64,000 nt of DNA from Antarctobacter albus. Its GTDB lineage: Bacteria > Pseudomonadota > Alphaproteobacteria > Rhodobacterales > Rhodobacteraceae. Positions within the stretch are counted from its first letter, which is position 1. The number at the start of each line of letters is the position of its first letter. Made by a program: the position numbers and the translations under genes. The stretch spans positions 1 to 64,000 of the forward strand of contig NZ_FMZI01000007.1 in the NCBI RefSeq assembly GCF_900101505.1, in the 5' to 3' direction. The notes beneath the pieces were generated by a model. It had not been told where the DNA came from and ran no database searches. It was given only the letters and a program-made list of their open reading frames with translations. Below are positions 24,574 to 42,138 of this stretch, piece after piece.

Positions 24574-25590
24574 ATGATCCACAAGAACTGGGCTGAACTG
24601 ATCAAGCCGACGCAGCTTGAGATCAAGCCGGGCGCCGATCCGTCGCGCATGGCCACCGTCGTTGCCGAACCGCTGGAGCGCGGCTTTGGTCTGACTCTGG
24701 GCAACGCACTGCGCCGGGTCCTGCTGTCGTCGCTTCAGGGCGCGGCCATCACCAGCGTGCAGATCGACAACGTGCTGCACGAATTCTCCAGCGTGGCCGG
24801 TGTGCGCGAAGACGTCACCGACATTATCCTGAACCTCAAGGGTGTGTCGCTGCGCATGGAAGTCGAAGGCCCCAAGCGCCTGTCCGTGACCGGCAAGGGC
24901 CCGGGCGTCGTGACCGCTGGCGATATCGCCGAAAGCGCGGGCATCGAGGTGCTGAACCGCGAGCATGTGATCTGCCACGTCGACGAAGGCGCCGAAGTGT
25001 ACATGGAATTCACCGTGAACACCGGCAAGGGCTATGTCAGCGCGGACAAGAACAAGCCCGAGGATGCGCCGATCGGTCTGATCCCGATCGACGCGATCTA
25101 TTCGCCGGTCAAGAAGGTCGCCTATGACGTGCAGCCCACCCGTGAGGGCCAGGTGCTGGACTACGACAAGCTGACCATGAAGATCGAAACCGACGGCTCG
25201 ATCACGCCCGAGGACGCCGTGGCCTTTGCCGCGCGCATCCTGCAGGACCAGCTGTCGATCTTCGTCAACTTCGAGGAACCGGAGTCGGCGGGCCGCCAGG
25301 ACGAGGACGACGGGCTGGAATTCAACCCGCTGCTTCTCAAGAAGGTGGACGAGCTGGAACTGTCGGTGCGTTCGGCAAATTGCCTGAAGAACGACAACAT
25401 CGTCTATATCGGCGACCTGATCCAGAAAACCGAAGCCGAGATGCTGCGCACCCCGAACTTTGGCCGCAAGTCCTTGAACGAAATCAAGGAAGTGCTGTCG
25501 GGCATGGGGCTGCACCTGGGCATGGACGTCGAGGACTGGCCGCCGGACAACATCGAGGACCTGGCCAAGAAGCTGGAAGACTCGTTCTGA
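24574..25590 (+). CDS. rpoA: DNA-directed RNA polymerase subunit alpha
   Basis: A 338-residue alpha subunit. The N-terminal dimerisation and assembly domain (residues ~1-230; [25 protein letters not shown]) is joined by an acidic linker ([18 protein letters not shown]) to the C-terminal domain that binds UP elements and activators ([20 protein letters not shown]...[13 protein letters not shown]). Standard position before rplQ. Confidence 0.98.
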
Positions 25591-29188: not shown

Positions 29189-29264
29189 GGGCCGTTAGCT
29201 CAGTTGGTAGAGCAACTGACTTTTAATCAGTGGGTCGTAGGTTCGAATCCTACACGGCTCACCA
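29189..29264 (+). tRNA. trnK: tRNA-Lys (anticodon TTT)
   Basis: A complete 76-base cloverleaf: D-arm TAGCTCAGTTGGTAGAGCA, anticodon stem ACTGA/TCAGT with loop CTTTTAA (anticodon TTT at 29222-29224), T-arm with GGTTCGAATCC, and an encoded CCA at the end. The acceptor stem has one G-T pair. Confidence 0.97.
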
Positions 29265-29437
29265 CTGAATCAAGGGCTTGGTCAGAAATGGCCAAGCCCT
29301 TGTTCGTTTCCGGGGCACACTGCGCAGCTTCTTCGTGACCTTGATTGCCCGGGGATTGCCCGGTCTTGCGGGTTTGCACATTTCCACGGCAGCGCGCCGC
29401 GCTTTTTCCTTGTGATCGGGCAAGCGCCGCGCGGTTC

Positions 29438-29451
29438 TTGACGCCGATCAA
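29438..29451. promoter_or_regulatory. FNR-type box upstream of the phosphotransferase/kinase gene
   Basis: TTGACGCCGATCAA matches the FNR/FnrL/Dnr consensus TTGA-N6-TCAA exactly. It ends 67 bases before the ATG at 29519. Part of a set of four boxes in this region. Confidence 0.7.
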
Positions 29452-29518
29452 GGGGCTGCTTTTCCAGACGTGGGATGACGGGGCAGGGATCAGACCCGGG
29501 AACAGGAGCGCCGGACGG

Positions 29519-31063
29519 ATGGCGGATCAGGAAGAGGTCGTGACCTTGCTGCAGCAGCCCGCGCTGTACGCCGGCGCCGCGGACGTGGACGTGGTCCGGA
29601 CGCATGGGGCCTATGTCTTTCTCGGCGGGGACACGGCGCTCAAGATCAAGCGGGCGGTGCGCTACGACTACCTCGACTACTCGACGCCGGAGCTGCGCGC
29701 GGCGGCCCTGCGGCGCGAGCTGGAGCTGAACGCGCCCGCCGCGCCGATGATCTATCGCGACATGGTGGCGGTGACGCGGGGGGCGGACGGTGCGCTGGCG
29801 CTGGATGGCGCGGGCGAGGTGGTGGAATGGGCGCTGCGGATGTGGCGGTTTCCGGACGAGGATCAGCTGGACCGGGTGGCAGGGCGTGGCGCGCTGGACC
29901 GGCCCCTGGCCGAGACGCTGGGCGAGAGCATCGCGCAGTATCACGCGGCGGCCCCGGCGCTGGCCGCGCCCGATGGTGCGCGGCGGATCGGAGACATCCT
30001 GGACGAACTGGGGCGCGAATTCGCGGGGATGGAGGGCGCGTTGCCCGCCGAGGGCATCGCGCGTTTTCTGGACCGGGCCAGGGAGGCGCTGGCGCGACAG
30101 GCGGCCCTGCTGGACAGCCGGGCAGAGGCGGGCCACGTCCGGCGCTGTCACGGTGACCTGCACCTGCGCAACATCGTCCTGATCGAGGGCCGGCCCGTGC
30201 CCTTCGACGCGCTGGAATTCAGCGAGGAGCTGGGCACCTGCGACGTGCTCTACGACCTGGCCTTCCTGCTGATGGACCTGCGCCACCGGGGGCTGGCCTG
30301 GGCCGCGAACGAGGTGCTGAACCGTTACCTGTTCGCCGCCGCGACCGATGACCATTATCGCGGGCTGGCCGCCCTGCCGCTGTTCCAGGCGGTGCGCGCG
30401 GGCATCAGCGCGATGGTGGCGGTCCAGACGGCGCGGGCGCAGGGCGGCAGCGCGCCCCTGTTGCGGGACGCCGGGCGCTATCTTGACGACGCCATTGCCG
30501 TGCTGGAGCCGGCGGCACCGAGGCTGGTGGCCCTGGGCGGGTTGTCCGGCACCGGCAAGACCACGGTGGCGCGCGGGCTGGCGCCGGACCTGGGGGCGCC
30601 ACCGGGGGCGGTGCATCTGCGTAGCGACATGATCCGCAAGGCTCTGTGCGGGATCGATCCCCTGACGCCGCTGGATGCACGCGGCTATAGGCCGGAGGTC
30701 AGCGCGGCGGTCTATGACCGGATGGACGCGCTGGCGCGCGAGGTTCTGCAGGCGGGACAGACGGTGATCGCGGATGCGGTCTTTCTGAACCCGGACGAAC
30801 GCGCCGCCATCGCGCAGGTCGCCCAAGACCTTGGCGCGGGCTTTGCCGGGCTGTGGCTGGAGGCAGAGGGGGCGGCGCTGGTCGCCCGCGTGTCGGACCG
30901 CCGGGGCGATGCCTCGGACGCGGATGCAGAGGTGGTGCGGACCCAATTGGCACGCGATACCGGACCCATCGGCTGGGCCCGTGTCGATGCCTCCGGCGCG
31001 GCGGACGAGGTGCTTGTCGCCTGCCGTGCCGCGCTTGGGGGGACTGGGCAGACGCCCGCCTGA
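29519..31063 (+). CDS. Bifunctional phosphotransferase-like / P-loop kinase protein
   Basis: A 514-residue two-domain protein. The N-terminal part (~1-330) is an aminoglycoside-phosphotransferase-like kinase with the catalytic CHGDLHLRNIVL loop at about 210-218 and FDALEF as metal-binding Asp. The C-terminal part (~340-514) is a P-loop kinase (GGLSGTGKTTVARGL) of the Zeta-toxin/AAA_33 type. The substrate is unknown. The fusion is often found near universal-stress, PHA and PEP-synthase genes in low-oxygen regulons. ATG 29519 was chosen for the AGGAG ten bases before it; an FNR-type box lies upstream. Confidence 0.85.
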   Translation: MADQEEVVTLLQQPALYAGAADVDVVRTHGAYVFLGGDTALKIKRAVRYDYLDYSTPELRAAALRRELELNAPAAPMIYRDMVAVTRGADGALALDGAGEVVEWALRMWRFPDEDQLDRVAGRGALDRPLAETLGESIAQYHAAAPALAAPDGARRIGDILDELGREFAGMEGALPAEGIARFLDRAREALARQAALLDSRAEAGHVRRCHGDLHLRNIVLIEGRPVPFDALEFSEELGTCDVLYDLAFLLMDLRHRGLAWAANEVLNRYLFAAATDDHYRGLAALPLFQAVRAGISAMVAVQTARAQGGSAPLLRDAGRYLDDAIAVLEPAAPRLVALGGLSGTGKTTVARGLAPDLGAPPGAVHLRSDMIRKALCGIDPLTPLDARGYRPEVSAAVYDRMDALAREVLQAGQTVIADAVFLNPDERAAIAQVAQDLGAGFAGLWLEAEGAALVARVSDRRGDASDADAEVVRTQLARDTGPIGWARVDASGAADEVLVACRAALGGTGQTPA

Positions 31064-31070
31064 CGCGCGC

Positions 31071-32780
31071 TCAGGTCTGCAGAACGTAGCTGCCCGGCGC
31101 GGTCATCAGTGGCGGCAACCCGGCCTCTGCCCGGCCCATCGGCGGCGGGGCGCCCCTTTCGCCGGTGCTCTTGGCCTCCAGCCAGTCGAACCAGACCGGC
31201 CACCAGGACCCGTCCTGGGGATCGTGGCGGGTCAGCCAGGTGTCCGGGTCCATGTAGTTGCGGCCCGGCGGACGGTGCCCCCGGCGGAAATGGCGGTGGG
31301 GCTGTCCCGGCACGCTGAGCACGCCGCCATTGTGCCCGCCCGAGGTCAGGACAAAGGTCAGGTCGCCATCGGTGAACAGGGCCGTCTTGTAGACAGAGCG
31401 CCAGGGCGCGATGTGATCCTTTTCCGTGCCCAGCACAAAGAACGGGGCGGAAATGTCCTTGAGCGCGATCACCCGCCCCTCGACCGAGAACCGCCCGGCG
31501 GTCAGGCGGTTTTCGAGGAACAGCCCGCGCAGGTATTCCGAATGCATCCGGTAGGGCATCCGCGTGGCGTCCATGTTCCAGGCGGAGAGGTCGAACATCG
31601 GGTCCTCTTCGCCCAGCAGGTACCGGCGCAACAGGCGGCTCCAGACCAGGTCGCGCGCGCGCAGGATCTGGAAGGCGCCTGCCATCTGCGGCGCGTCCAG
31701 ATAGCCCTTGTCCCACATCATGTCCTCGAGAAAGGCGATCTGGCTTTCGTCGACGAAAAGCATCAGCTCGCCCGCCTCGGAGAAATCGGTCTGCCCGGCC
31801 AGCAGCGTGACCGAGGCCAGCCGGTCGTCGCCGTCGCGTGCCATTGCCGCCGCCGCGATGGCCAGGATGGTGCCGCCCAGGCAATAGCCGCAGGCATGGA
31901 CCCGGGGCGCCCTGGTGATCACCTGCACCGCCTCCAGCGCCTCCATCACGCCGCGGCGGCGGTAGTCTTCCAGCGACAGTTCGCTCTGCTCGGCGGTGGG
32001 ATTGCACCACGAGATCGCGAAAACGGTAAATCCCTGCGCGACCAGCTGCGCGATCAGCGATTTCGGCGGGCTGAGGTCGAGGATGTAGTATTTCATGATC
32101 CAGGCCGGGACGATCAGCAGCGGCTCGGCGTGGACGGTTTCGGTCTGCGGGGCGTACTGGATCAGTTCGAACAGGTCGTTGCGATAGACCACCTGACCGG
32201 GTGTGACGGCCAGGTCCTTGCCCACGTCGAACCCCTCGGGGCGCGGGGCGGGCTGTTGCGCGATCATCCGGGCGCTGTCTTCGGCGAGGTGCCTTGCGCC
32301 CTCGACGAAATTGCGGCCGCCGGTCTTCAGCGCGGCCTCGACCACCTCGGGGTTGGTCAGTGGAAAGTTCGAGGGCGAGACCATGTCGAGCCCCTGTCGC
32401 ACCATGAAATTCACCCTGTCGGCGCTGATCTTGCGCATGCCGCGAATTTCGGCGGTGGCCTCCGTCCACCAGGCCTCTTGCGCCAGGAAGGCGGTCTTCA
32501 TCGCGCGGAAGGGGGGCAGGGCCCAGCCCGGGTGGTCGAAGCGATGATCGCCGGGCGCGGGCTGCGGTCCCTCTGAGCGTCCGGCAAGGGCCAGCGCGGT
32601 TTCACCCGCGATGCGGGAGGCTTGCTGGGTCAGTGCGGTCATCCGGCCGGGGGCCGCGGCCAGGTGGGACAGCCAGTCCATCCAGGCCGAGGCGGCGGAA
32701 TGCGGCGAAAGGCCCCCGGTGGCCCGGGCGCTGGTGGCGCGCAATGCGCGGTCCAGCGTGTTGCTGTCGGTGTCGGTCAT
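31071..32780 (-). CDS. phaC: Polyhydroxyalkanoate synthase (PhaC-type)
   Basis: A 569-residue class I-like PHA synthase that polymerises (R)-3-hydroxyacyl-CoA. The N-terminal domain (~60-230) precedes an alpha/beta-hydrolase domain with the lipase-like box GYCLGG, whose Cys (about residue 300) is the nucleophile; later Asp and His regions (DMSAWN-like DLSAWNMD; TSGGHNGG) are also present. No phasin, phaA/B or phaR is adjacent. The start at 32780 has AGGA upstream. It is divergent from the P-type ATPase with FNR-type boxes between. Confidence 0.88.
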   Translation of the reverse strand: MTDTDSNTLDRALRATSARATGGLSPHSAASAWMDWLSHLAAAPGRMTALTQQASRIAGETALALAGRSEGPQPAPGDHRFDHPGWALPPFRAMKTAFLAQEAWWTEATAEIRGMRKISADRVNFMVRQGLDMVSPSNFPLTNPEVVEAALKTGGRNFVEGARHLAEDSARMIAQQPAPRPEGFDVGKDLAVTPGQVVYRNDLFELIQYAPQTETVHAEPLLIVPAWIMKYYILDLSPPKSLIAQLVAQGFTVFAISWCNPTAEQSELSLEDYRRRGVMEALEAVQVITRAPRVHACGYCLGGTILAIAAAAMARDGDDRLASVTLLAGQTDFSEAGELMLFVDESQIAFLEDMMWDKGYLDAPQMAGAFQILRARDLVWSRLLRRYLLGEEDPMFDLSAWNMDATRMPYRMHSEYLRGLFLENRLTAGRFSVEGRVIALKDISAPFFVLGTEKDHIAPWRSVYKTALFTDGDLTFVLTSGGHNGGVLSVPGQPHRHFRRGHRPPGRNYMDPDTWLTRHDPQDGSWWPVWFDWLEAKSTGERGAPPPMGRAEAGLPPLMTAPGSYVLQT

Positions 32781-32851
32781 GGCTGGGTCCTGCGGTCGCT
32801 TGCCGGAAAGGTGAGTCGGGGGCACCCTAGGGGAGGTCCTGCAAAACCCCG

Positions 32852-32865
32852 ATGACGTGGATCAA
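32852..32865. promoter_or_regulatory. FNR-type box proximal to phaC (one mismatch)
   Basis: ATGACGTGGATCAA matches TTGA-N6-TCAA except for the first base. On the minus strand a TAGGGT -10-like box (32829 to 32824) ends 34.5 bases from its centre, so the box would lie near -41.5 of a phaC transcript. Confidence 0.5.
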
Positions 32866-32894
32866 AGTTTCGGCGTGTCGCCGCGCGCGGCGGC

Positions 32895-32908
32895 TTGACG
32901 TGCGTCAA
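32895..32908. promoter_or_regulatory. FNR-type box proximal to the P-type ATPase
   Basis: TTGACGTGCGTCAA, a perfect TTGA-N6-TCAA match. TAGGTT (32931-32936) ends 34.5 bases from its centre, the spacing of a class II FNR-activated promoter; the ATG is 85 bases after the box. Confidence 0.72.
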
Positions 32909-32993
32909 ATCGTGCGGATCGCCCATGCCCTAGGTTGCCCGCGAACAGGACGCGCGTGATCCTGAAACCCTGAACAGACGGACGAGGTGCGGC

Positions 32994-35597
32994 ATGATGG
33001 CGGACACTGGCGGGGCAGCCTATGGGCTGACCTCCACGCAGGCGGCGGACCGGCTGGCCGAGGTCGGGCCGAACCAGCTGGCGGAACGCAAACCGGTCTC
33101 GCGCTGGGTGATCCTGGCGCGTCAGTTCACCAGCCCTCTGATCGTGATGCTGATTGCCGCCGCCGGGATCGCCGCCGCGCTGGGCGAGACGGTGGATGCC
33201 GTGGCCATCGTGCTGGTCGTACTGCTGAACGGAGTGCTGGGCTTCGTGCAGGAATGGCGCACGGAAACCGCGCTGGCGGCGCTGCGGAACATGCTGGCGA
33301 CAGAGGCGCGGGTGGTGCGCGACGGCGCCCAGGTGATGATCGACACGCGCCAGATCGTGCCGGGTGACCTGGTGATCCTGGACAGCGGCGACAAAGTGCC
33401 TGCCGACCTGGTGCTGACCTCCGGCATGCGGCTGAAGGTCGACGAGAGCGTGCTGACCGGGGAATCGGTGCCCGTGGACAAGCACCTGGGTGACGAGGAC
33501 GTGCCCCTGTTCATGGGGTCGAACGTGGTGGCGGGCCGGGCCGAGGGCGTGGTGCGCGCCACCGGGCCGCGCACGGAATTCGGCCATATCGCGGAGCTGA
33601 CCGCCTCGATCGACGTGGGCGAAACCCATTTGCAGGCGCAACTGGCGCGGCTGGCGCGGCTGCTGGGAGGTCTGGCGCTGGGGCTGGCGGGGCTGGTGCT
33701 GGTGGCCGGGCTGCTGTCGGGGCGCGAGTTGCACGAGATGTTCCTGACCGCGATTGCCCTGGCCGTCGCGATGGTGCCCGAGGGGCTGCCGGCGGTGGTT
33801 ACGATCACGCTGGCTCTGGGCGCCTCGGCGATGCTGCGGCGGCAGTCCTTGGTGCGGCGGTTGCAGGCGGTCGAGACGCTGGGTGCGGCGACGGTGATCT
33901 GCACCGACAAGACCGGAACGCTGACCGAAAACGCCATGACCGTGACGCGGATCTGGACGCCCGGGCGCAGCTACGAGGTCACGGGCACGGGCTATGACCC
34001 GGCGGGCCATATCGCGGCGGAGGGCGAGCGCCTGCGCGCGGCGGATGATCCCCGTCTGGCGGACCTGATCGACGTGGCCCTGTCCTGCAACCACGCCGAG
34101 CTGGGCCACCGCGACGGCGGCTGGCACATGGTCGGCGACCCGACCGAAGGGGCGCTGGTCACGCTGGGGTTCAAGGGTTGGTCCGATTTGCCGAACCCGG
34201 CGGACCGGCTGGCCGAGATCCCCTTTGACGCCGAGCGCAAGCGCATGAGCGTGGTGATGCGAAGGGGCACGGGGCTGGTGCAGATGGTCAAGGGCGCGCC
34301 GGAATCCGTTCTGGACGTCTGTACGCAGGTGCAGGGGGATGGGGGCGCTGTCGAGCCCCTGACCGCCGACCGCCGGGCCGGGATCGAGGCGGTCGCGGCA
34401 GAGATGGCCTCGGACGGGCGGCGGCTGTTGGGGCTGGCGATGCGCCCTGTCGAGGACCCGCTGGCGGGGGAAGAAGGTCTGATCTTCCTGGGACTGGTGG
34501 GCATGATCGACCCGCCGCGCGCCGAGGTGAAACAGGCGGTGTCCCTGTGTCGCCGTGCCGGTATCCGCGTGGTCATGATCACCGGGGATGCAGCCCCGAC
34601 AGGCGCCGCCATCGCGCGCGAGATCGGGTTGCGGGTGGATCGCATGCTGACCGGCGAGGATCTTGACCACCTGTCCGAGGATGAGTTGCACGAGCTGCTG
34701 AAGGGCGACGTGCATTTCGCCCGGACGGCCCCGGCGCACAAGATGCGGCTGGTCGGGGCCTTGCAGCAAAGCGGCAACCTGGTTGCGATGACCGGGGACG
34801 GCGTCAATGACGCGCCCGCCCTGCGGCAGGCCGATATCGGCATCGCGATGGGCAAGCGCGGCACGGACGTGGCCAAGGATGCCAGCGACCTGGTGCTGCT
34901 GGACGACAATTTCGCCACCATCGTCGGCGCCGTCGAAGAGGGGCGCCGCCAGTTTTCCAACATCCAGCGGTTCGTCCGCTACCTGCTGTCCTCGAACGCG
35001 GGCGAGGTGCTGGCCATCGTGGCCAACCTCTTCCTGGGCGGGCCGCTGATCTTCCTGGCGACGCAGATCCTGTGGATGAACCTTGTCACCGACGGGGTGA
35101 CGGCGGTGGCGCTGGGCATGGAGAAACCGGCGCCGGACCAGATGGACCAGCCGCCGGTGCCCGCGGATCATCCGATCCTCGATCTGCCGGGGCTGGCGAT
35201 GATCGCCTGTTTCGGCCTCTATACCGGGGGCGTCAGCCTGTGGCTGTTCTACGGCCACCTGGGACAGGGAGAGGACCTGGCGCGGACGATGGCCTTCGCG
35301 GGGATCGTGGTCTTTGAAAAGGCCAGCGTCTTTGCCTTCCGATCGTTCCGCCTGCCGATGTCGGGGATCGGCTACCTGTCGAACCGGCCCCTGTTGCTGG
35401 CCTTTGCGGTGACGATGGCGATGCAGGTGGCGGCGATCTACTGGCCGCCGCTGCAACACCTGCTGCACACCGTGCCGCTGAGCTGGGAGCAGCTGGGCCT
35501 GCTGGGGGCGCTGGCGCTGCCGCTGCTGTTGGTGCCGGAACTGGTGAAATACGCCCGCCGGTCGCGGGCGCGGGGGCTGACGGTGGCGGCGCGTTGA
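32994..35597 (+). CDS. P2-type cation-transporting ATPase
   Basis: An 867-residue P-type ATPase of the Ca2+/Na+-pump-like group. It has an N-terminal cation ATPase domain, TGES actuator motif (LTGESVPVDKH), TM4 motif VPEGLPAV, phosphorylated Asp305 in CTDKTGTLTEN, KGAPE nucleotide motif, and TGDGVNDAPALRQADIGIAMG. Around ten membrane segments are expected, the last six after residue ~660. PEGLPA in TM4 points to Ca2+/Mn2+ or Na+/K+-like transport rather than heavy metals. The stop codon lies inside the next FNR-type box. Confidence 0.9.
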   Translation: MMADTGGAAYGLTSTQAADRLAEVGPNQLAERKPVSRWVILARQFTSPLIVMLIAAAGIAAALGETVDAVAIVLVVLLNGVLGFVQEWRTETALAALRNMLATEARVVRDGAQVMIDTRQIVPGDLVILDSGDKVPADLVLTSGMRLKVDESVLTGESVPVDKHLGDEDVPLFMGSNVVAGRAEGVVRATGPRTEFGHIAELTASIDVGETHLQAQLARLARLLGGLALGLAGLVLVAGLLSGRELHEMFLTAIALAVAMVPEGLPAVVTITLALGASAMLRRQSLVRRLQAVETLGAATVICTDKTGTLTENAMTVTRIWTPGRSYEVTGTGYDPAGHIAAEGERLRAADDPRLADLIDVALSCNHAELGHRDGGWHMVGDPTEGALVTLGFKGWSDLPNPADRLAEIPFDAERKRMSVVMRRGTGLVQMVKGAPESVLDVCTQVQGDGGAVEPLTADRRAGIEAVAAEMASDGRRLLGLAMRPVEDPLAGEEGLIFLGLVGMIDPPRAEVKQAVSLCRRAGIRVVMITGDAAPTGAAIAREIGLRVDRMLTGEDLDHLSEDELHELLKGDVHFARTAPAHKMRLVGALQQSGNLVAMTGDGVNDAPALRQADIGIAMGKRGTDVAKDASDLVLLDDNFATIVGAVEEGRRQFSNIQRFVRYLLSSNAGEVLAIVANLFLGGPLIFLATQILWMNLVTDGVTAVALGMEKPAPDQMDQPPVPADHPILDLPGLAMIACFGLYTGGVSLWLFYGHLGQGEDLARTMAFAGIVVFEKASVFAFRSFRLPMSGIGYLSNRPLLLAFAVTMAMQVAAIYWPPLQHLLHTVPLSWEQLGLLGALALPLLLVPELVKYARRSRARGLTVAAR

Positions 35598-35607
35598 CCT
35601 GAATCAA
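35594..35607. promoter_or_regulatory. FNR-type box upstream of ppsA
   Basis: TTGACCTGAATCAA, a perfect TTGA-N6-TCAA match, ends 56 bases before the ppsA start. It contains the stop codon of the ATPase gene, so the site overlaps coding sequence. Confidence 0.7.
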
Positions 35608-35663
35608 CGAAGCCGGGCGCGTTTCTACTACCCTTCGGTCATTCCGAGGGGAGGGAGGACCCG

Positions 35664-38060
35664 ATGGCTGACATGGACACGGACGACAGGCGCACCCTGA
35701 TCTGGTTCGAGCATCTTCGGCGCGGGGACGTGGCGCTGGTGGGGGGCAAGAACGCCTCGCTGGGCGAGATGGTGCAATCGCTGGATGCCAGCCGCATCCG
35801 GGTGCCGCCGGGGTTTGCGACCACCTCCTCCGCCTATCGTGCCTTCATCGCGGCCAACGGGTTCGGCGCGGTGCTGCGGGAGGAACTGGCGGCGCTGGGC
35901 GAGGGGCGCAAGACATTGGCGCAGGCGGGCCGCGCGATCCGCGAGACGCTGGCGACAGGGGCCTTTCCGCCGCAGATCGAGGCTGACATTCTTGGTGCCT
36001 ACCGCGAGCTGGGGCGGCGCACGGGGCGGGAAAATCCCTCTGTCGCCGTGCGCTCCTCGGCCACGGCCGAGGACCTGCCCGACGCCAGTTTCGCGGGCCA
36101 GCAGGAAACCTTTCTGAACGTCGAGGGCGAGCGCGCGCTGCTGATGGCCTGCCGCCGCTGCTATGCCTCGCTGTTCACGGACCGGGCGATCACCTACCGC
36201 GAGATCAACGGGTTCGATCACCTCGACGTGGCGCTGTCCATCGGTGTGCAGTTGATGGTGCGATCGGATATCGCCGGGTCGGGGGTTATGTTTTCCATCG
36301 ACACCGAAAGCGGCTTTGACAGGACGGTGCTGATCAACGCGGCCTGGGGGCTGGGCGAGAACGTGGTGCAGGGCGCGGTCAGCCCGGATGAATACCAGGT
36401 CTACAAGCCCTTCCTGGCCCGGCCCGAACTGGTGCCGATCACGCACAAGGCGCTGGGCGCGAAAGAAATCAAGATGATCTACGGCACGGGAGACGGCGCG
36501 GCAACGCGCAACGTGCCGACCTCGAAGGCGGAGCGTGAGAGTTTCGTGCTGTCCGACGGCGAGATCCTGGAACTGGCCCGGGCGGCGGTCGAGATCGAGG
36601 CGCATTATGGCTGTCCGATGGACATGGAATGGGCGCGCGACGGGATCGACGGGCAGCTGTACATCGTGCAGGCGCGGCCCGAGACGGTGCAGTCGCGCCG
36701 GGGCGCGGGCGCGATGAAGACCTACAGCCTGGGCGCGCATGGCGAACGGCTATTGACCGGGCTCAGCGTCGGCGGGGCGGTGTCCTCTGGCGAGGTCATC
36801 ATCATCGAGAGCGCGGCGGACATCGACCGTTTCGTCGACGGGGCGGTGCTGGTGACATCGACCACGGACCCGGACTGGGTGCCGGTGATGAAACGGGCCG
36901 CCGCCATCGTGACGGATCACGGCGGGCGCACCTCTCATGCGGCCATCGTCAGCCGGGAACTGGGCGTTCCGGCGGTGGTCGGCACCGGCAATGCGACCCA
37001 TGTCCTGCACGATCAACAGCAGGTGACGGTCTCCTGCGCCGAGGGCGAGGAGGGGGTGATCTACGCCGGACGGGCCGAGGTGACGGTGGAGGAACTGGAC
37101 TTGGCCCATGTCCCTGAGACCTGCACGCAGGTCATGCTGAACCTCGCCAACCCCTCGACCGCGGCGCGCTGGTGGCGGCTGCCGGCGGATGGGGTCGGAC
37201 TGGCGCGGATGGAATTCGTGGTCTCGAACGAGGTCCGGGTGCATCCGCTGGCACTGACCCGCTACGAGCAGGTGGTGTCCGAGGAAGACCGGGCGGCGAT
37301 CGACGCGCTGACCAGGGGCCATGCGGACCGGACCGCCTATTTCGTCGAGACGCTGGCGCGGGGATTGGCGCGGATCGCGGCGGTCTGGCATCCGCGCCCG
37401 GTCATCGTACGGATGAGCGATTTCAAGACCAACGAATACGCCGACCTGCTGGGCGGGCGGGCCTTTGAACCGCAGGAAGAGAACCCGATGATCGGGTTCC
37501 GGGGCGCCTCTCGGTACTACTCGGAAGGGTATCGCGACGGGTTCGAGCTGGAATGCCGGGCGATCCGGCACCTGCGCGAGGGGATGGGCTTTGACAACGT
37601 GGTGGTCATGATCCCCTTTTGCCGCACGGTGGGCGAGGCGGACCGGGTGCTGGAGGTCATGGCGGCCCAGGGGCTGGAACGCGGCAAGGCGGGGCTGGAG
37701 GTCTACGTCATGTGCGAGATCCCCTCGAACGTGATCGAGGCCGAGCGGTTCGCCGAACGGTTCGACGGGTTTTCCATCGGGTCGAACGACCTGACCCAGC
37801 TGACGCTGGGCATCGACCGGGATTCCGAGGCGCTGGCCGAGCTGTTCTCGGAACGGGATCCGGCGGTCTTGTGGATGATCGAGACGGTGATTGCCAAGGC
37901 GCGCAAGGCGGGGCGCAAGATCGGGCTGTGCGGTCAGGCGCCCTCGAACGATCCGGGGTTTGCGCGGCTGCTGGTGCAGGCGGGGATCTCATCGATTTCC
38001 GTGACGCCGGACAGCTTCCTGGCGGTGAAGCGGAACGTGGCAGAGGCGGAGGCGGGCTGA
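35664..38060 (+). CDS. ppsA: Phosphoenolpyruvate synthase
   Basis: A 798-residue PEP synthase (pyruvate + ATP + water to PEP + AMP + phosphate). Domains in order: ATP-grasp PPDK_N (~20-335; NPSVAVRSSATAEDLPDASFAGQQETFLNV), swivelling phosphohistidine domain with catalytic His at about 425 in GGRTSHAAIVSRELG, and C-terminal PEP/pyruvate barrel with CEIPSNV and FSIGSNDLTQLTLGIDRD. It is usually gluconeogenic, but the FNR-type box upstream and the neighbours suggest use in low-oxygen carbon and energy balance. Confidence 0.94.
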   Translation: MADMDTDDRRTLIWFEHLRRGDVALVGGKNASLGEMVQSLDASRIRVPPGFATTSSAYRAFIAANGFGAVLREELAALGEGRKTLAQAGRAIRETLATGAFPPQIEADILGAYRELGRRTGRENPSVAVRSSATAEDLPDASFAGQQETFLNVEGERALLMACRRCYASLFTDRAITYREINGFDHLDVALSIGVQLMVRSDIAGSGVMFSIDTESGFDRTVLINAAWGLGENVVQGAVSPDEYQVYKPFLARPELVPITHKALGAKEIKMIYGTGDGAATRNVPTSKAERESFVLSDGEILELARAAVEIEAHYGCPMDMEWARDGIDGQLYIVQARPETVQSRRGAGAMKTYSLGAHGERLLTGLSVGGAVSSGEVIIIESAADIDRFVDGAVLVTSTTDPDWVPVMKRAAAIVTDHGGRTSHAAIVSRELGVPAVVGTGNATHVLHDQQQVTVSCAEGEEGVIYAGRAEVTVEELDLAHVPETCTQVMLNLANPSTAARWWRLPADGVGLARMEFVVSNEVRVHPLALTRYEQVVSEEDRAAIDALTRGHADRTAYFVETLARGLARIAAVWHPRPVIVRMSDFKTNEYADLLGGRAFEPQEENPMIGFRGASRYYSEGYRDGFELECRAIRHLREGMGFDNVVVMIPFCRTVGEADRVLEVMAAQGLERGKAGLEVYVMCEIPSNVIEAERFAERFDGFSIGSNDLTQLTLGIDRDSEALAELFSERDPAVLWMIETVIAKARKAGRKIGLCGQAPSNDPGFARLLVQAGISSISVTPDSFLAVKRNVAEAEAG

Positions 38061-38114: not shown

Positions 38115-38582
38115 TCAGGGGGAAAGGGGGACCTCCGTCCCCTGCTTGATCCGGCGCAGGACAAACATCGTGGCTGTGCCGGCGACGTTTTCATGTTCCA
38201 GAACCCGGCGCATCAGGATCGATTCTAGGTCCGCGATGTCGCGCACCACGAGGTGCAGCAGGTAATCCCATTCGCCGGAGATCGAGTAGACCTCGGTGAT
38301 GGCCGGTTCCGCCTCCATCGCGCGCTGGAATTCGGCGCGGGCGGCGGCGTCCTGGGATTTCATGCGCACCTGCACGAAGGCATCCATGCCGCGCCCCACG
38401 GCGGCGGGGTCGACGTGGCGCACCGGCGGGCCGATCACGCCGCGATCCTCCAGCGCGCGCAGGCGGCGCCAGCAGGTCGCCGGAGAGCTGTTCACCGCCT
38501 GTGCGAGCTCCTGCATGCTGCCCGAAGCGTCCTTTTGCAGGACGGCCAGGATGCGACGGTCGAGATCCGAGAGTTGAGGCAT
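38115..38582 (-). CDS. Lrp/AsnC-family transcriptional regulator
   Basis: A 155-residue protein with an N-terminal helix-turn-helix (LSDLDRRILAVLQKDASGSMQELAQAV, SPATCWRRLRALEDRGVI) and a C-terminal RAM/effector domain (VYSISGEWDYLLHLVVRDI). Such proteins sense amino acids. It is divergent from the indolepyruvate oxidoreductase, 124 bases away, and probably regulates it with an aromatic or branched amino acid as effector. The start MPQLSDLD was chosen to match the family; longer upstream frames add no domain. Confidence 0.9.
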   Translation of the reverse strand: MPQLSDLDRRILAVLQKDASGSMQELAQAVNSSPATCWRRLRALEDRGVIGPPVRHVDPAAVGRGMDAFVQVRMKSQDAAARAEFQRAMEAEPAITEVYSISGEWDYLLHLVVRDIADLESILMRRVLEHENVAGTATMFVLRRIKQGTEVPLSP

Positions 38583-38604
38583 TTCGTTCGCTTTTTGGCC
38601 TGAG

Positions 38605-38619
38605 AGTGAATGGTTCACT
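38605..38619. promoter_or_regulatory. Inverted repeat, candidate Lrp-type operator
   Basis: AGTGAA-TGG-TTCACT is a perfect 6-3-6 inverted repeat 22 bases from the regulator start and 87 bases from the oxidoreductase start. Length and placement fit an operator for the divergent Lrp-family protein; this is inferred. Confidence 0.5.
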
Positions 38620-38706
38620 GCAAGATGTGACCCAAGACTGAGAGATTGGAAGGTCTTTTTCAGCAGAACAGGTAAAAATCCCCCGATCCGCGACAGGGAG
38701 GATGCC

Positions 38707-41700
38707 ATGACGGACCAGACGCCGATTCTGACCGATTACGCATTGGAAGACCGTTATACCCGCACCGAGGGCCGGGTGTTCCTGACCGGGACGCAGGCGA
38801 TCCTGCGGATCGCGCTGGACCAGGCGCGGCGCGACCGGGCGCGGGGGCTGGACACGCGGGGCTATATCTCGGGCTATCGCGGCTCTCCGGTGGGCGGGGT
38901 CGACCTCGAGGTGTCGGGCCATGCCAAGCTGGTCGAAGAGGCCGGGATCACCTTTCTGCCCGCGATCAACGAGGAACTGGGCGCGACCCAGATGATCGGC
39001 ACGCAGCAGGTGGAGACCGACCCGGACAAGACCTGCGAGGGGGTCTTTGGCCTGTGGTACGGCAAGGGGCCGGGGGTGGACCGGGCGGCAGATGCGCTGA
39101 AACACGGCAATGCCTACGGATCTTCGCCGCATGGTGGCGTGCTGGTGGTGGCGGGGGATGACCACGGCTGTGTCTCTTCGTCGATGCCGCACCAGTCGGA
39201 CGTGGCCTTCATGAATTTCTTCATGCCGACGCTGAACCCGGCCAACGTGGCCGAGTTCCTGCCATTTGGCGAATGGGGCTATGCGCTGTCGCGGTTCTCG
39301 GGCATGTGGGTCGGCTTCAAGGCGATTTCCGAGACGGTGGAATCGGGCATGTCGGTGGAATTGCCCGCCGACCGGGCGTTTGTCGCACCGGACTACACGC
39401 CGCCCGAAACCGGGCTGCATTACCGCTGGCCCGACCTGCCGGGGATGCAGATCGAAGAGCGGATGGAGGCCAAGAAAAACGCCGTGCTGGCCTTTGCCCG
39501 CGCCAATCCCATCGACCGGGCGGAATGGGGGCACGAGGCCCGGTTCGGCATCGTGACCACCGGCAAGGCGCACTTGGACACCCTGGAGGCGCTGCGCCTG
39601 CTGGGGATCGATGAGGATCTGGCGCGCGAACTGGGCATCGACCTTTACAAGGTGGGCATGGTCTGGCCGCTGGAGGATCGCGGCGCGCTGGGCTTTGCGC
39701 ATGAAAAGCAGGAACTGCTGGTCATCGAGGAAAAGCGCGGGATCATCGAGAGCCAGCTCAAGGAATATTTCTACGATTTCCCCGGGCAAAAGCCCGAACG
39801 CATGGTCGGCAAGCGCGACGAGCACGGTGACCGGCTGATCCCCTGGACGCATGAACTGGGCGCCGTGATGCTGGCGCGGATCATCGCGAAACGACTGGAC
39901 CTGAATCTTGGCACATCACTCACGGAACGTGCCGAGGCGCTGGTGCCGCCCCCGAACCTGATCGAGGTGCCGGGGGCGGCCCGCACGCCCTATTTCTGCT
40001 CGGGCTGTCCGCACAATACGTCCACGAAAGTGCCCGAGGGCAGCCAGGCGCTGGCGGGGATCGGCTGTCACTTCATGGCAAGCTGGATGGACCGCAACAC
40101 GACCTCGCTTATCCAGATGGGGGGCGAGGGCGTCAACTGGGTCGCGCGGTCGAAGTTCAACGGCAACCGGCATGTGTTTCAGAACCTCGGCGAGGGGACG
40201 TACTATCACTCGGGCTCGCTGGCGGTGCGGCAGGCGATTGCGGCGGGGACCAACATCACCTTCAAGATCCTGTTCAACGATGCCGTGGCCATGACCGGCG
40301 GGCAGGTGGTGGACGGGCCGATTTCCGTGCAGGCGATTGCGCAGACGGTGCTGGCCGAGGGGGCGAAACGGGTGGTCGTCGTTTCGGACCAGCCTGAGAA
40401 TTTCCGCAAGGGCGACTTCCCGGCGGGGGTCGAGATCGAGCATCGGCGCGAGATGGACCGGGTGCAGCGCGAATTGCGCGAGATTCCCGGGACCACGGTG
40501 CTGATCTACCAGCAGACCTGCGCGACAGAGAAACGCCGCCTGCGCAAGCGCGGCAAGATGGAGGACCCCAAGCGGTTCGCCGTCATCAACCCGCTGGTCT
40601 GCGAGGGCTGCGGCGATTGCGGGGTGGAATCGAATTGCCTGAGCGTCGAGCCGCTGGAGACGGAATTTGGCCGCAAGCGGCAGATCAACCTGAACTCCTG
40701 CAACAAGGATTTCACCTGCCTCAACGGCTTCTGCCCCAGCTTCGTGACCGTCGAGGGGGCGACGCTGAAGAAGGGGCGCGGCGTGTCCGAAGCGCAGTTG
40801 AACGAGATGGTGGCCGGGTTGCCGGCGCCGATCGTGCCGTCGCTGGACACGCCCTGGGATATTCTTGTCACCGGCGTTGGCGGGACGGGGGTCGTGACCG
40901 TGGGCCAGTTGATCGCGATGGCGGCGAACCTCGAAGGGCGGGGCGCCAGCGTGCTGGACTTCATGGGGTTCGCGCAGAAATTCGGGCCGGTGCTCAGCTA
41001 CCTGCGGATGTCTTCGCGCCCCGAAGACGTGAACCAGGCGCGGATCGAGCCGTCCTCGGCGGATGCGCTGATCGGCTGTGACCTGGTGGTAAGCTCTTCG
41101 CCCAAGGCCTCGATGACCTACCGGGCGGGGCATACGCGGGCGGTGGTGAACACGGCCCTGATGCCGACCGGGGATTTCACGCGCAACCGCGATGCGGACC
41201 TGAAGGCGGGCGACCGGCTGGCGCGGATTTCCGGGGCGGTGGATGGCAAGGCGCTGCAATCGCTGGATGCCAATGCCCTGTCAGAGGCGCTGCTGGGCGA
41301 CACGGTCTTTGCCAACGTCCTGATGCTGGGCGCGGCCTGGCAGGCGGGGCTGGTGCCCCTCACCGAGGCGGCGCTGATGCGGGCGATCGAGCTGAACGGG
41401 GTCAAGCCGGAGCTGAACAAACAGGCCTTTGCCTGGGGACGGGTTGCCGTGACCGATCACGAGGGCGTCGAGCGGATCGCCGGGATCGAGGCGCGGCCCG
41501 TGCAGACGCTGGAGCAGATGATCGACCGGCGGGCGGATTTCCTGGGTGACTACCAGAGCCGGCGCTGGGCGCGGCGCTATCGCGATGACCTGCAAAAGGT
41601 GATCGAGGCCGAGACCCGCGTGGCGGGCGCGCCGGGCGCCCTGTCCGAGGCGGCGGCCAAGGGCCTGTTCAAGCTGATGTCCTACAAGGACGAATACGAG

Positions 41701-42138
41701 GTCGCGCGGCTGCACGCGCAGACAGGTTTCCTGGACGGGTTGAAGGACCGTTTCGAAGGCGAGTTCACCGTGCGCCACCACCTTGCGCCGCCAATTCTGT
41801 CCTCGGGCACGGATGCGCGCGGGCGGCCTCTGAAACGCAGCTTTGGCCCCTGGGTGCAGGTGGCCTTTCGCCAGCTTGCGCGGATGAAGCGGCTGCGGGG
41901 CACGGTGTTCGACCCCTTTGGGCGCACCGGGGAGCGGCGGATGGAACGGGCGCTGATCGGGGAATACCGCGCTCTGCTGGATCGGCTGGTCAACGGGCTG
42001 ACGTCGGACAACCGCGAGGAGGCGGCGCGGATCGCTGGGCTTGTCATGGAAATCCGCGGCTTTGGCCCGGTCAAGGAGGAGGCCACGGAAAAGACCCGCA
42101 AGGCGATTGCCGAGGCTATTACGCAGTATGCTGCCTAA
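38707..42138 (+). CDS. Indolepyruvate ferredoxin oxidoreductase (fused alpha-beta)
   Basis: A 1143-residue fused 2-oxoacid:ferredoxin oxidoreductase that decarboxylates aryl-pyruvates from aromatic amino acids to aryl-acetyl-CoA. Order: an N-terminal pyrimidine-binding-like domain (RGYISGYRGSPVGG), a TPP-binding domain (CSGCPHNTSTKVPEG...NDAVAMTGGQ), a Cys-rich segment (CEGCGDCGVESNC, CNKDFTCLNGFC) for an Fe-S cluster, and a C-terminal gamma domain (VTGVGGTGVVTVGQL). AGGGAGG five bases upstream fixes the start. Divergent Lrp regulator; beta-oxidation gene downstream. Confidence 0.92.
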   Translation: MTDQTPILTDYALEDRYTRTEGRVFLTGTQAILRIALDQARRDRARGLDTRGYISGYRGSPVGGVDLEVSGHAKLVEEAGITFLPAINEELGATQMIGTQQVETDPDKTCEGVFGLWYGKGPGVDRAADALKHGNAYGSSPHGGVLVVAGDDHGCVSSSMPHQSDVAFMNFFMPTLNPANVAEFLPFGEWGYALSRFSGMWVGFKAISETVESGMSVELPADRAFVAPDYTPPETGLHYRWPDLPGMQIEERMEAKKNAVLAFARANPIDRAEWGHEARFGIVTTGKAHLDTLEALRLLGIDEDLARELGIDLYKVGMVWPLEDRGALGFAHEKQELLVIEEKRGIIESQLKEYFYDFPGQKPERMVGKRDEHGDRLIPWTHELGAVMLARIIAKRLDLNLGTSLTERAEALVPPPNLIEVPGAARTPYFCSGCPHNTSTKVPEGSQALAGIGCHFMASWMDRNTTSLIQMGGEGVNWVARSKFNGNRHVFQNLGEGTYYHSGSLAVRQAIAAGTNITFKILFNDAVAMTGGQVVDGPISVQAIAQTVLAEGAKRVVVVSDQPENFRKGDFPAGVEIEHRREMDRVQRELREIPGTTVLIYQQTCATEKRRLRKRGKMEDPKRFAVINPLVCEGCGDCGVESNCLSVEPLETEFGRKRQINLNSCNKDFTCLNGFCPSFVTVEGATLKKGRGVSEAQLNEMVAGLPAPIVPSLDTPWDILVTGVGGTGVVTVGQLIAMAANLEGRGASVLDFMGFAQKFGPVLSYLRMSSRPEDVNQARIEPSSADALIGCDLVVSSSPKASMTYRAGHTRAVVNTALMPTGDFTRNRDADLKAGDRLARISGAVDGKALQSLDANALSEALLGDTVFANVLMLGAAWQAGLVPLTEAALMRAIELNGVKPELNKQAFAWGRVAVTDHEGVERIAGIEARPVQTLEQMIDRRADFLGDYQSRRWARRYRDDLQKVIEAETRVAGAPGALSEAAAKGLFKLMSYKDEYEVARLHAQTGFLDGLKDRFEGEFTVRHHLAPPILSSGTDARGRPLKRSFGPWVQVAFRQLARMKRLRGTVFDPFGRTGERRMERALIGEYRALLDRLVNGLTSDNREEAARIAGLVMEIRGFGPVKEEATEKTRKAIAEAITQYAA

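Follow-up and report, generated by a model that had tools for sequence, protein, structure and literature searches.

FNR-type promoter elements ahead of phaC, a cation pump gene, ppsA and a double kinase gene in Antarctobacter albus: a probable local gathering of low-oxygen regulon genes

Two described regulatory systems come closest to the locus analyzed here. In Bradyrhizobium diazoefficiens, according to the cited passages of PMC9104804 and PMC10888616, FixK2 activates both ppsA (blr4655) and phaC2 (bll6073), with support from in vitro transcription; the boxes given in these passages are TTGACCTGCCTCAA at -47 for ppsA and TTGATGCAGCTCAA at -81 for phaC2 (PMC9104804). In Rhodobacter sphaeroides, FnrL is reported (in the relevant part of PMC2908626) to bind at phbC-fabI (RSP1257-4), where the site is TTGAGcaagATCAA, and to increase phbC. 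The subject of this study is a 64,000-nt stretch of Antarctobacter albus DNA (contig NZ_FMZI01000007.1 of a 5.26-Mb genome in 36 contigs), referred to below as the window. It contains a block of four genes encoding a double kinase, a second polyhydroxyalkanoate (PHA) synthase paralogue (phaC), a P2A-type cation pump and phosphoenolpyruvate (PEP) synthase (ppsA), accompanied by FNR-type boxes (TTGA-N6-TCAA; Table 1). We consider it highly probable that this block is a local gathering of low-oxygen FNR regulon genes, in which an FNR-type activator, most likely FnrL, would act at class II promoters of phaC, the pump gene and ppsA, and on the kinase gene from the box at 29438.

The initial annotation listed three perfect boxes (29438, 32895, 35594) and another with one mismatch (32852), and a pattern search recovered all four as claimed. 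Perfect sites in the window number four vs 0.35 expected, a count reached in 0 of 100 shuffles. One-mismatch sites are also common (24 vs 11.65 expected; shuffle maximum 20), therefore a lone one-mismatch box means little; what lends weight to the box at 32852 is the distance to its -10 element and the fact that two relatives conserve it. Genome-wide, 59 TTGA-N6-TCAA sites were counted vs 8 for a reversed control pattern, indicating that the motif is in use in this genome. In 12% of simulations, a random scatter of 59 sites includes at least one group of three within 6.2 kb, which is why clustering was rejected as stand-alone evidence. This frequency, the surplus of one-mismatch sites and the occurrence of a perfect site inside rpoA could be taken to mean that the boxes arose by chance in GC-rich DNA, but such a reading is contradicted by the spacer control, the -10 register and the paralogue control (described below), and we find it hardly credible. 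As to the rpoA site itself (25474-25487), a fourth perfect box unmentioned in the initial annotation, it is also found in the two nearest same-genus relatives; lying within coding sequence, it is no sign of function, and its retention is likely due to coding constraint.

The promoter geometry links individual boxes to genes. The phaC, pump and ppsA boxes are each followed by a -10-like element at a gap of 21-23 bases, which is the class II position of FNR (box centred near -41.5), and by this spacing the box at 32852 is assigned to phaC, that at 32895 to the pump gene and that at 35594 to ppsA. Together with the lack of such an element after 29438, this suggests that each promoter has a box of its own, the assignment being least certain for the kinase. 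For the other three promoters, box, spacing and -10 element can be read as one unit within the window, making it a clean case. The same register is apparent in a set of 63 perfect boxes, where the pattern TANNNT starts at base 22, 23 or 24 (counted from the box end) in 12, 8 and 2 cases, respectively; elsewhere there are no starts at bases 1-21 and six at bases 25-40. The resulting 22 of 63 compares with a shuffle mean of 1.3 and a maximum of 7 in 2000 runs. By gene, TANNNT at bases 22-24 follows the perfect boxes of ppsA in 6/6, of the pump gene in 5/6, of phaC in 7/20 (a count in which two boxes or more, including those of L228 and L229, are part of the divergent pump promoter) and of the kinase gene in 4/31. 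The corresponding numbers for one-mismatch boxes are 3/6, 2/5, 9/12 and 6/25.

Conservation was assessed first of all in six genomes of the genus: G000 (the source genome), G149, G150, G151, G152 and G153. The pump gene is present in all six, an orthologous ppsA (at least 88% identity) in five, an orthologous phaC (at least 82%) in four and the kinase gene in three. The complete order kinase-phaC-pump-ppsA, beside genes for an Lrp-type protein and a fused indolepyruvate oxidoreductase, occurs in G000, G152 and G153; with the same neighbours, G151 has phaC-pump-ppsA, G149 pump-ppsA and G150 the pump gene only. According to the initial annotation, the boxes should be conserved wherever the genes are kept, and within the genus they are: the pump box is retained in 6/6 genomes (five perfect, one-mismatch in G152), a perfect ppsA box in 5/5 and a perfect kinase box in 3/3, the pump and ppsA boxes persisting also in genomes that have no kinase or phaC. 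A one-mismatch phaC box is found in 3/4 genomes, and G151 has a single perfect box between phaC and the pump gene. In the upstream alignments (seven genomes for the pump gene, six for ppsA), invariant columns fall mainly on the box halves, the -10-like element and the vicinity of the start codon; two half-site positions of the pump box vary, in one genome each. The half-sites of the kinase box are kept in all three kinase-bearing genomes with a varying spacer, and one-mismatch kinase boxes were found at -86 in G025 and at -68 in Salipiger mucosus.

Outside the genus, none of 100 kinase loci (98 of them distinct, and some not long enough to cover four genes) showed the complete order, and the possibility of a conserved four-gene island extending beyond the genus was rejected on these grounds. 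Pairs of the four gene families do recur as neighbours there. The confinement of the full order to the genus points to a local gathering of a known regulon. Hence, the compact module proposed in the initial annotation holds for three of the six genus genomes and was not seen at the kinase loci outside.

For a wider sample of relatives, we compared perfect half-sites at spacers of 2-10 bases within 250 bp upstream of each gene. A spacer of 6 was observed ahead of 26/104 kinase genes (with no more than one case at any of spacers 2-5 and 7-10), 13/29 phaC genes of the window subfamily (0-1 at other spacers), 6/9 pump orthologues of at least 50% identity and 6/13 ppsA genes (0 at other spacers for both). 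With one mismatch allowed, the ppsA count rises to 11/13 at spacer 6, and spacers 4, 5, 7 and 8 give 0-2. When box-headed operons are included, 46/97 kinase genes have a box, compared with 1, 0, 1 and 0 at spacers 4, 5, 7 and 8; in 21/97 loci the box precedes a same-strand gene ahead of the kinase (as defined by a simple open reading frame (ORF) rule, by which some may be spurious), which partly explains the kinases that have no box nearby. In nine loci (L086, L087, L097, L099, L106, L108, L116, L118 and L122) a box is followed by a small cytochrome-c-like ORF and then by the kinase gene, which suggests that the two form an operon; the Pfam basis for the cytochrome assignment is for L087. Excluded from the upstream listing and the spacer control were duplicates, matches that began beyond query residue 60 and genes whose upstream DNA was too short (in the spacer control, two kinases and one distant pump, L180). 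From the 104 kinases, 103 entered the -10 test and 97 the operon count; L010 and L021, which have a stop in the kinase frame, were left out of the alignments and kept in the upstream counts, and L025, in which only the N-terminal half matches, was counted.

The control by paralogues concerns phaC. Housekeeping phaC paralogues, represented by 20 of the 51 full-size phaC matches below 46% identity (two of the stretches shorter than 1,001 bases), have a perfect box in 0/20 stretches, and the phaC group below 46% in the spacer control has one in 0/7. One-mismatch sites do occur in 16/20 of the housekeeping stretches, mostly in the coding part (in four also, or only, several hundred bases upstream). 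Since the oxygen-type switch is carried by a single phaC paralogue of the two, what the second PHA synthase does can be tested directly. Taken together, these comparisons of sequences establish the boxes, their spacing, their conservation and their paralogue specificity; and the proposal of the initial annotation that the boxes act as FNR-type promoter elements is supported by the spacer control, the -10 register and the upstream footprints.

A number of points weigh against the proposed FNR-dependent block, starting with the samples themselves: related sequences in the counts are not independent events, and the identity cut-offs of 46% (phaC) and 50% (pump) were chosen after seeing the upstream listing of the relatives. 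No perfect box was found within 250 bp of 78/104 kinase genes, nor in the same interval for any of 16 pumps below 50% identity. Two distant pumps are exceptions, L180 (44%) with a perfect box at -140 and L123 (33%) at -266; on the whole, pump control may be confined to near relatives. Among the described systems, the quoted part of PMC6515984 lists ppsA and phaC2 of B. diazoefficiens as microoxia-induced and marks only phaC2 as a FixK2 target, unlike PMC9104804 and PMC10888616. The phbC gene of R. sphaeroides may belong to another phaC subfamily than the window gene. A study of R. capsulatus states, in the section cited, that FnrL is not directly involved in the regulation of glycolysis in Rhodobacter (PMC4634722), so FNR control of ppsA would set the present organism apart from that genus.

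The kinase box adds to these points, as no TANNNT lies 21-23 bases downstream of 29438 and the class II spacing is therefore absent. It could be a remnant or serve another start, leaving FNR control in this block to phaC, the pump gene and ppsA. The low frequency of the -10 register behind kinase boxes in general, both perfect and one-mismatch, agrees with that. On the other hand, the half-sites have been kept in every kinase-bearing genome of the genus despite the change in the spacer, one-mismatch boxes lie ahead of the gene in G025 and Salipiger mucosus, and in about a fifth of the loci a box heads the same-strand gene before the kinase. In view of this, we regard the reading as a remnant or as serving another start as somewhat unlikely.

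The last point concerns the product of phaC, which is the second paralogue and to which the storing of reductant suggested in the initial annotation may not apply. In the cited passages of PMC10888616, PhaC2 of B. diazoefficiens is reportedly dispensable for polyhydroxybutyrate (PHB), PhaC1 alone being required, and heterodimers of PhaC1 with PhaC2 are suggested to have lower activity, such that PhaC2 may damp PhaC1. By analogy, the window phaC product could modulate the main synthase and add no storage, the block then lowering PHA formation or freeing carbon at falling oxygen. This remains a serious if still doubtful alternative to a storage role, opposed by the Cys-Asp-His motifs of the window protein and by the increase of R. 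sphaeroides phbC by FnrL (PMC2908626, relevant part).

With regard to the activator, the genome encodes an FnrL-type protein with cysteines at positions 13, 16, 24, 27, 112 and 113 and the sequence ETVSR. We take these cysteines to be the FNR ligands and ETVSR to be the reader of TTGA. Its gene and a radical-SAM (hemN-like) gene are divergently oriented and flank a box. Like this one, several of the fetched sites lie at genes characteristic of FNR regulons; the others are a universal stress protein (Usp) gene, the gene for subunit II of cytochrome c oxidase and a block that includes subunit II of cytochrome bd. A further perfect box (L161:928-941), 72 bases ahead of the ATP synthase delta subunit gene, perhaps heads the ATP synthase operon. 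At the same time, there are 15 CRP-type helix-turn-helix matches in the genome, seven of them over the cut-off, including a second FnrL-like CRP/FNR protein, L137 (G000:C12:7802-8026), with C-x2-C-x7-C near its N-terminus and FETVSR. As far as sequence goes, FnrL, this second protein and other CRP/FNR proteins cannot be told apart as the binder. The boxes might therefore be read mainly by another family member (a Dnr/NnrR-type nitric oxide sensor or the second FnrL-like protein), with nitric oxide, alone or along with low oxygen, as the signal. The abundance of candidates favours this, as does the example of Dinoroseobacter shibae, described in the source at hand as employing FnrL plus three Dnr proteins; but the boxes match the FnrL sites in the published passages, the same passages report FnrL or FixK2 control in relatives for two of the gene families, and we judge a main role of another regulator to be unlikely. 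We infer that FnrL is the binding protein and that the block genes are induced at low oxygen.

The layout of the block is summarized in Table 1. The kinase start was set to 29519 from homology and an ATG codon, leaving 67 bases between box and start; before this correction, the box at 29438 fell within a longer mechanical ORF. The phaC start was likewise corrected to 32780. The stop codon that ends the pump gene (35595-35597) lies within the ppsA box, whose TTGA contains the TGA. A sigma-70 consensus scan of the block returned 0 promoters vs 0.3 expected, which fits activator-dependent promoters and proves nothing. A terminator scan of the block gave fewer such hairpin sites than shuffles, and the hairpin on the left border marks a position and is not proof of a terminator. 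On the right, an Lrp-type gene and, divergent from it, a fused indolepyruvate ferredoxin oxidoreductase gene (38115-42138) adjoin the block in 6/6 genus genomes, this pair staying in place whichever of kinase, phaC and ppsA is present.

Table 1. Features of the block, with window coordinates
Feature	Coordinates	Strand	Basis or remark
tRNA-Lys (TTT), then terminator-like hairpin 29271-29302 (left border)	29189..29302	+	position
Kinase FNR-type box, perfect, TTGACGCCGATCAA	29438..29451	+	perfect box at same place in both same-genus relatives with the kinase
Double kinase gene	29519..31063	+	APH/choline-kinase-like domain, about residues 20-325 of 513 modelled; P-loop kinase domain, about 333-507
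phaC, second PHA synthase paralogue	31071..32780	-	PhaC_N, PHBC_N; Cys, Asp, His motifs
-10-like TAGGGT of phaC	32824..32829	-	22 bases after box 32852
phaC box, one mismatch, minus-strand TTGATCCACGTCAT	32852..32865	-	identical sequence in G152 and G153
Pump box, perfect, TTGACGTGCGTCAA	32895..32908	+	pattern search; footprint in 7 genomes
-10-like TAGGTT of pump gene	32931..32936	+	22 bases after box 32895
P2A-type (calcium-ATPase-like) cation pump gene	32994..35597	+	Pfam; best NCBIfam match TIGR01522 (below cut-off); motifs
ppsA box, perfect, TTGACCTGAATCAA	35594..35607	+	pattern search; footprint in 6 genomes
-10-like TACCCT of ppsA	35629..35634	+	21 bases after box 35594
ppsA, PEP synthase	35664..38060	+	TIGR01418 and PRK06464 above cut-off

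The double kinase combines a weak Pfam APH match (E 1.4e-6) with an AAA_33 P-loop domain; no NCBIfam model matched it. In an alignment of 40 sequences (39 of 80 loci plus the window protein), the APH-type lysine, glutamate, H-x-D, Asn and Asp as well as the Walker and lid residues are identical in 40/40, except for one T/S Walker position; these are residues that we presume to be catalytic. The AlphaFold2 model has a mean predicted local distance difference test score (pLDDT) of 93.9. The best Foldseek matches of the APH half are a choline/ethanolamine kinase-like protein, methylthioribose kinase, homoserine kinase and aminoglycoside kinases, and those of the P-loop half are gluconokinase and polynucleotide kinase, at identities of 10-28% in the first 50 rows (12-19% for the fold match to drug kinases). 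As modelled, the protein is thus two intact small-molecule kinase folds joined together, and the folds do not reveal its substrate. A PDB sequence search with the N-terminal half produced nothing meaningful, and the profile of the whole protein matched the P-loop half only. A role as part of an anti-phage system was considered and rejected, PADLOC E-values being only 0.016 upward. The Mycobacterium tuberculosis protein Rv2004c presumably has the same two-domain make-up.

The kinase family is widespread, with at least 573 relatives confirmed in genome contigs and 92 plasmid records, the genera named in the latter being mostly alpha- or betaproteobacterial and some actinobacterial (29-32% identity). 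In the family sample, 36/149 genomes have a kinase match, and 24 of these (source genome included) are full-length or nearly so. The name "bifunctional aminoglycoside phosphotransferase/ATP-binding protein" appears in 11 of 30 listed plasmid records, which cover 84-100% of the kinase length, and the window kinase has both domains and the intact catalytic residues of that family. Accordingly, the initial annotation was too strong in calling the kinase undescribed, and was right in that no substrate was found. A literature search on the database name gave no paper with it in title or abstract. The neighbours within 7 kb of the kinase in 100 distinct loci (two from the genus) include Usp (29), ABC transporter (23), GNAT (17), CRP/FNR regulator (16), P-type ATPase (15), PhaC (13), zinc alcohol dehydrogenase (13), cytochrome c (11), HSP20 (9) and DUF2267 (9); these numbers cover clusters whose representative was scanned with Pfam, and the ABC transporter cluster is generic and may mix unrelated genes. 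The second-ranked cluster (48 loci) was discarded, its representative lying antisense over the kinase, and several smaller clusters look like the same artefact.

The block phaC protein is 34% identical to the other copy in the genome (G000:C21:239302); it scores 513.5 against TIGR01838 (class I PHA synthase), under the cut-off of 622.65, and carries the PhaC_N domain and the Cys-Asp-His motifs of that class. The pump has P2A-like motifs (DKTGT, TGES, PEGL, NLVTDG) and stays under the NCBIfam cut-offs for PMR1-type and SERCA-type calcium ATPases (TIGR01522, 665.1 of 798.3; TIGR01116, 598.8 of 703.4), making it by sequence a P2-type ATPase nearest to calcium pumps, probably with calcium as its ion. 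PpsA is over both of its cut-offs (TIGR01418, 1068.8 vs 739.75; PRK06464, 1099.4 vs 598).

The course of events that we propose would begin at low oxygen, when the boxes near -41.5 would be bound by an FNR-type activator; the FnrL whose gene lies elsewhere in the genome is the most likely candidate. Class II activation would follow at three promoters that have a separate box and -10 element each (phaC from 32852, the pump gene from 32895, ppsA from 35594), and the kinase gene would be activated from 29438 through a weaker or differently placed core promoter. As respiration stalls, PpsA would turn pyruvate to PEP, the second synthase would adjust the PHA pool, the pump would export a divalent cation, probably calcium, and the double kinase would phosphorylate one or two small hydroxyl metabolites, all four together forming part of a low-energy survival state. 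This account of energy and storage is put forward as a plausible hypothesis.

The regulatory idea is not new, since FixK2 control of ppsA and phaC2 and FnrL control of phbC have already been published; a literature search produced no paper that brings FnrL, regulon, PEP synthase and universal stress protein together. The likeness to the FixK2 regulon, as far as the cited passages describe it, lies in the same gene families (ppsA, phaC2) and the same type of box, and the letters of the B. diazoefficiens phaC2 box recur in L113 and L119. It differs in that the activator is FixK2, not an Fe-S FNR, and in that ppsA and phaC2 are far apart, judging from locus numbers; the kinase and the pump are not among the genes named in those passages. 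The R. sphaeroides FnrL regulon shares with the source genome the boxed fnrL/hemZ and usp genes, and the passages on it do not name ppsA, the double kinase or the P2A pump among its genes; a "putative kinase RSP0470" is predicted there in the FixK set and may or may not correspond to the window kinase. The DosR dormancy regulon of M. tuberculosis, although different in regulator and phylum, is likewise a low-oxygen regulon with a P-type calcium pump, ctpF (PMC9180918, cited part), and it includes Rv2004c, for which a mild phosphotransferase activity is reported (PMC8701281, cited part; a further parallel appears in the corresponding part of PMC5483032). It is conceivable, though we would not expect it, that the double kinase and the P2A pump represent a low-oxygen survival set common to several phyla and placed under the oxygen regulator of each lineage (FnrL, FixK2, perhaps DosR), the kinase acting on a metabolite specific to energy-starved, oxygen-limited cells. 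What the window offers to the comparison is that it sets these two little-studied genes beside known FNR/FixK2 targets.

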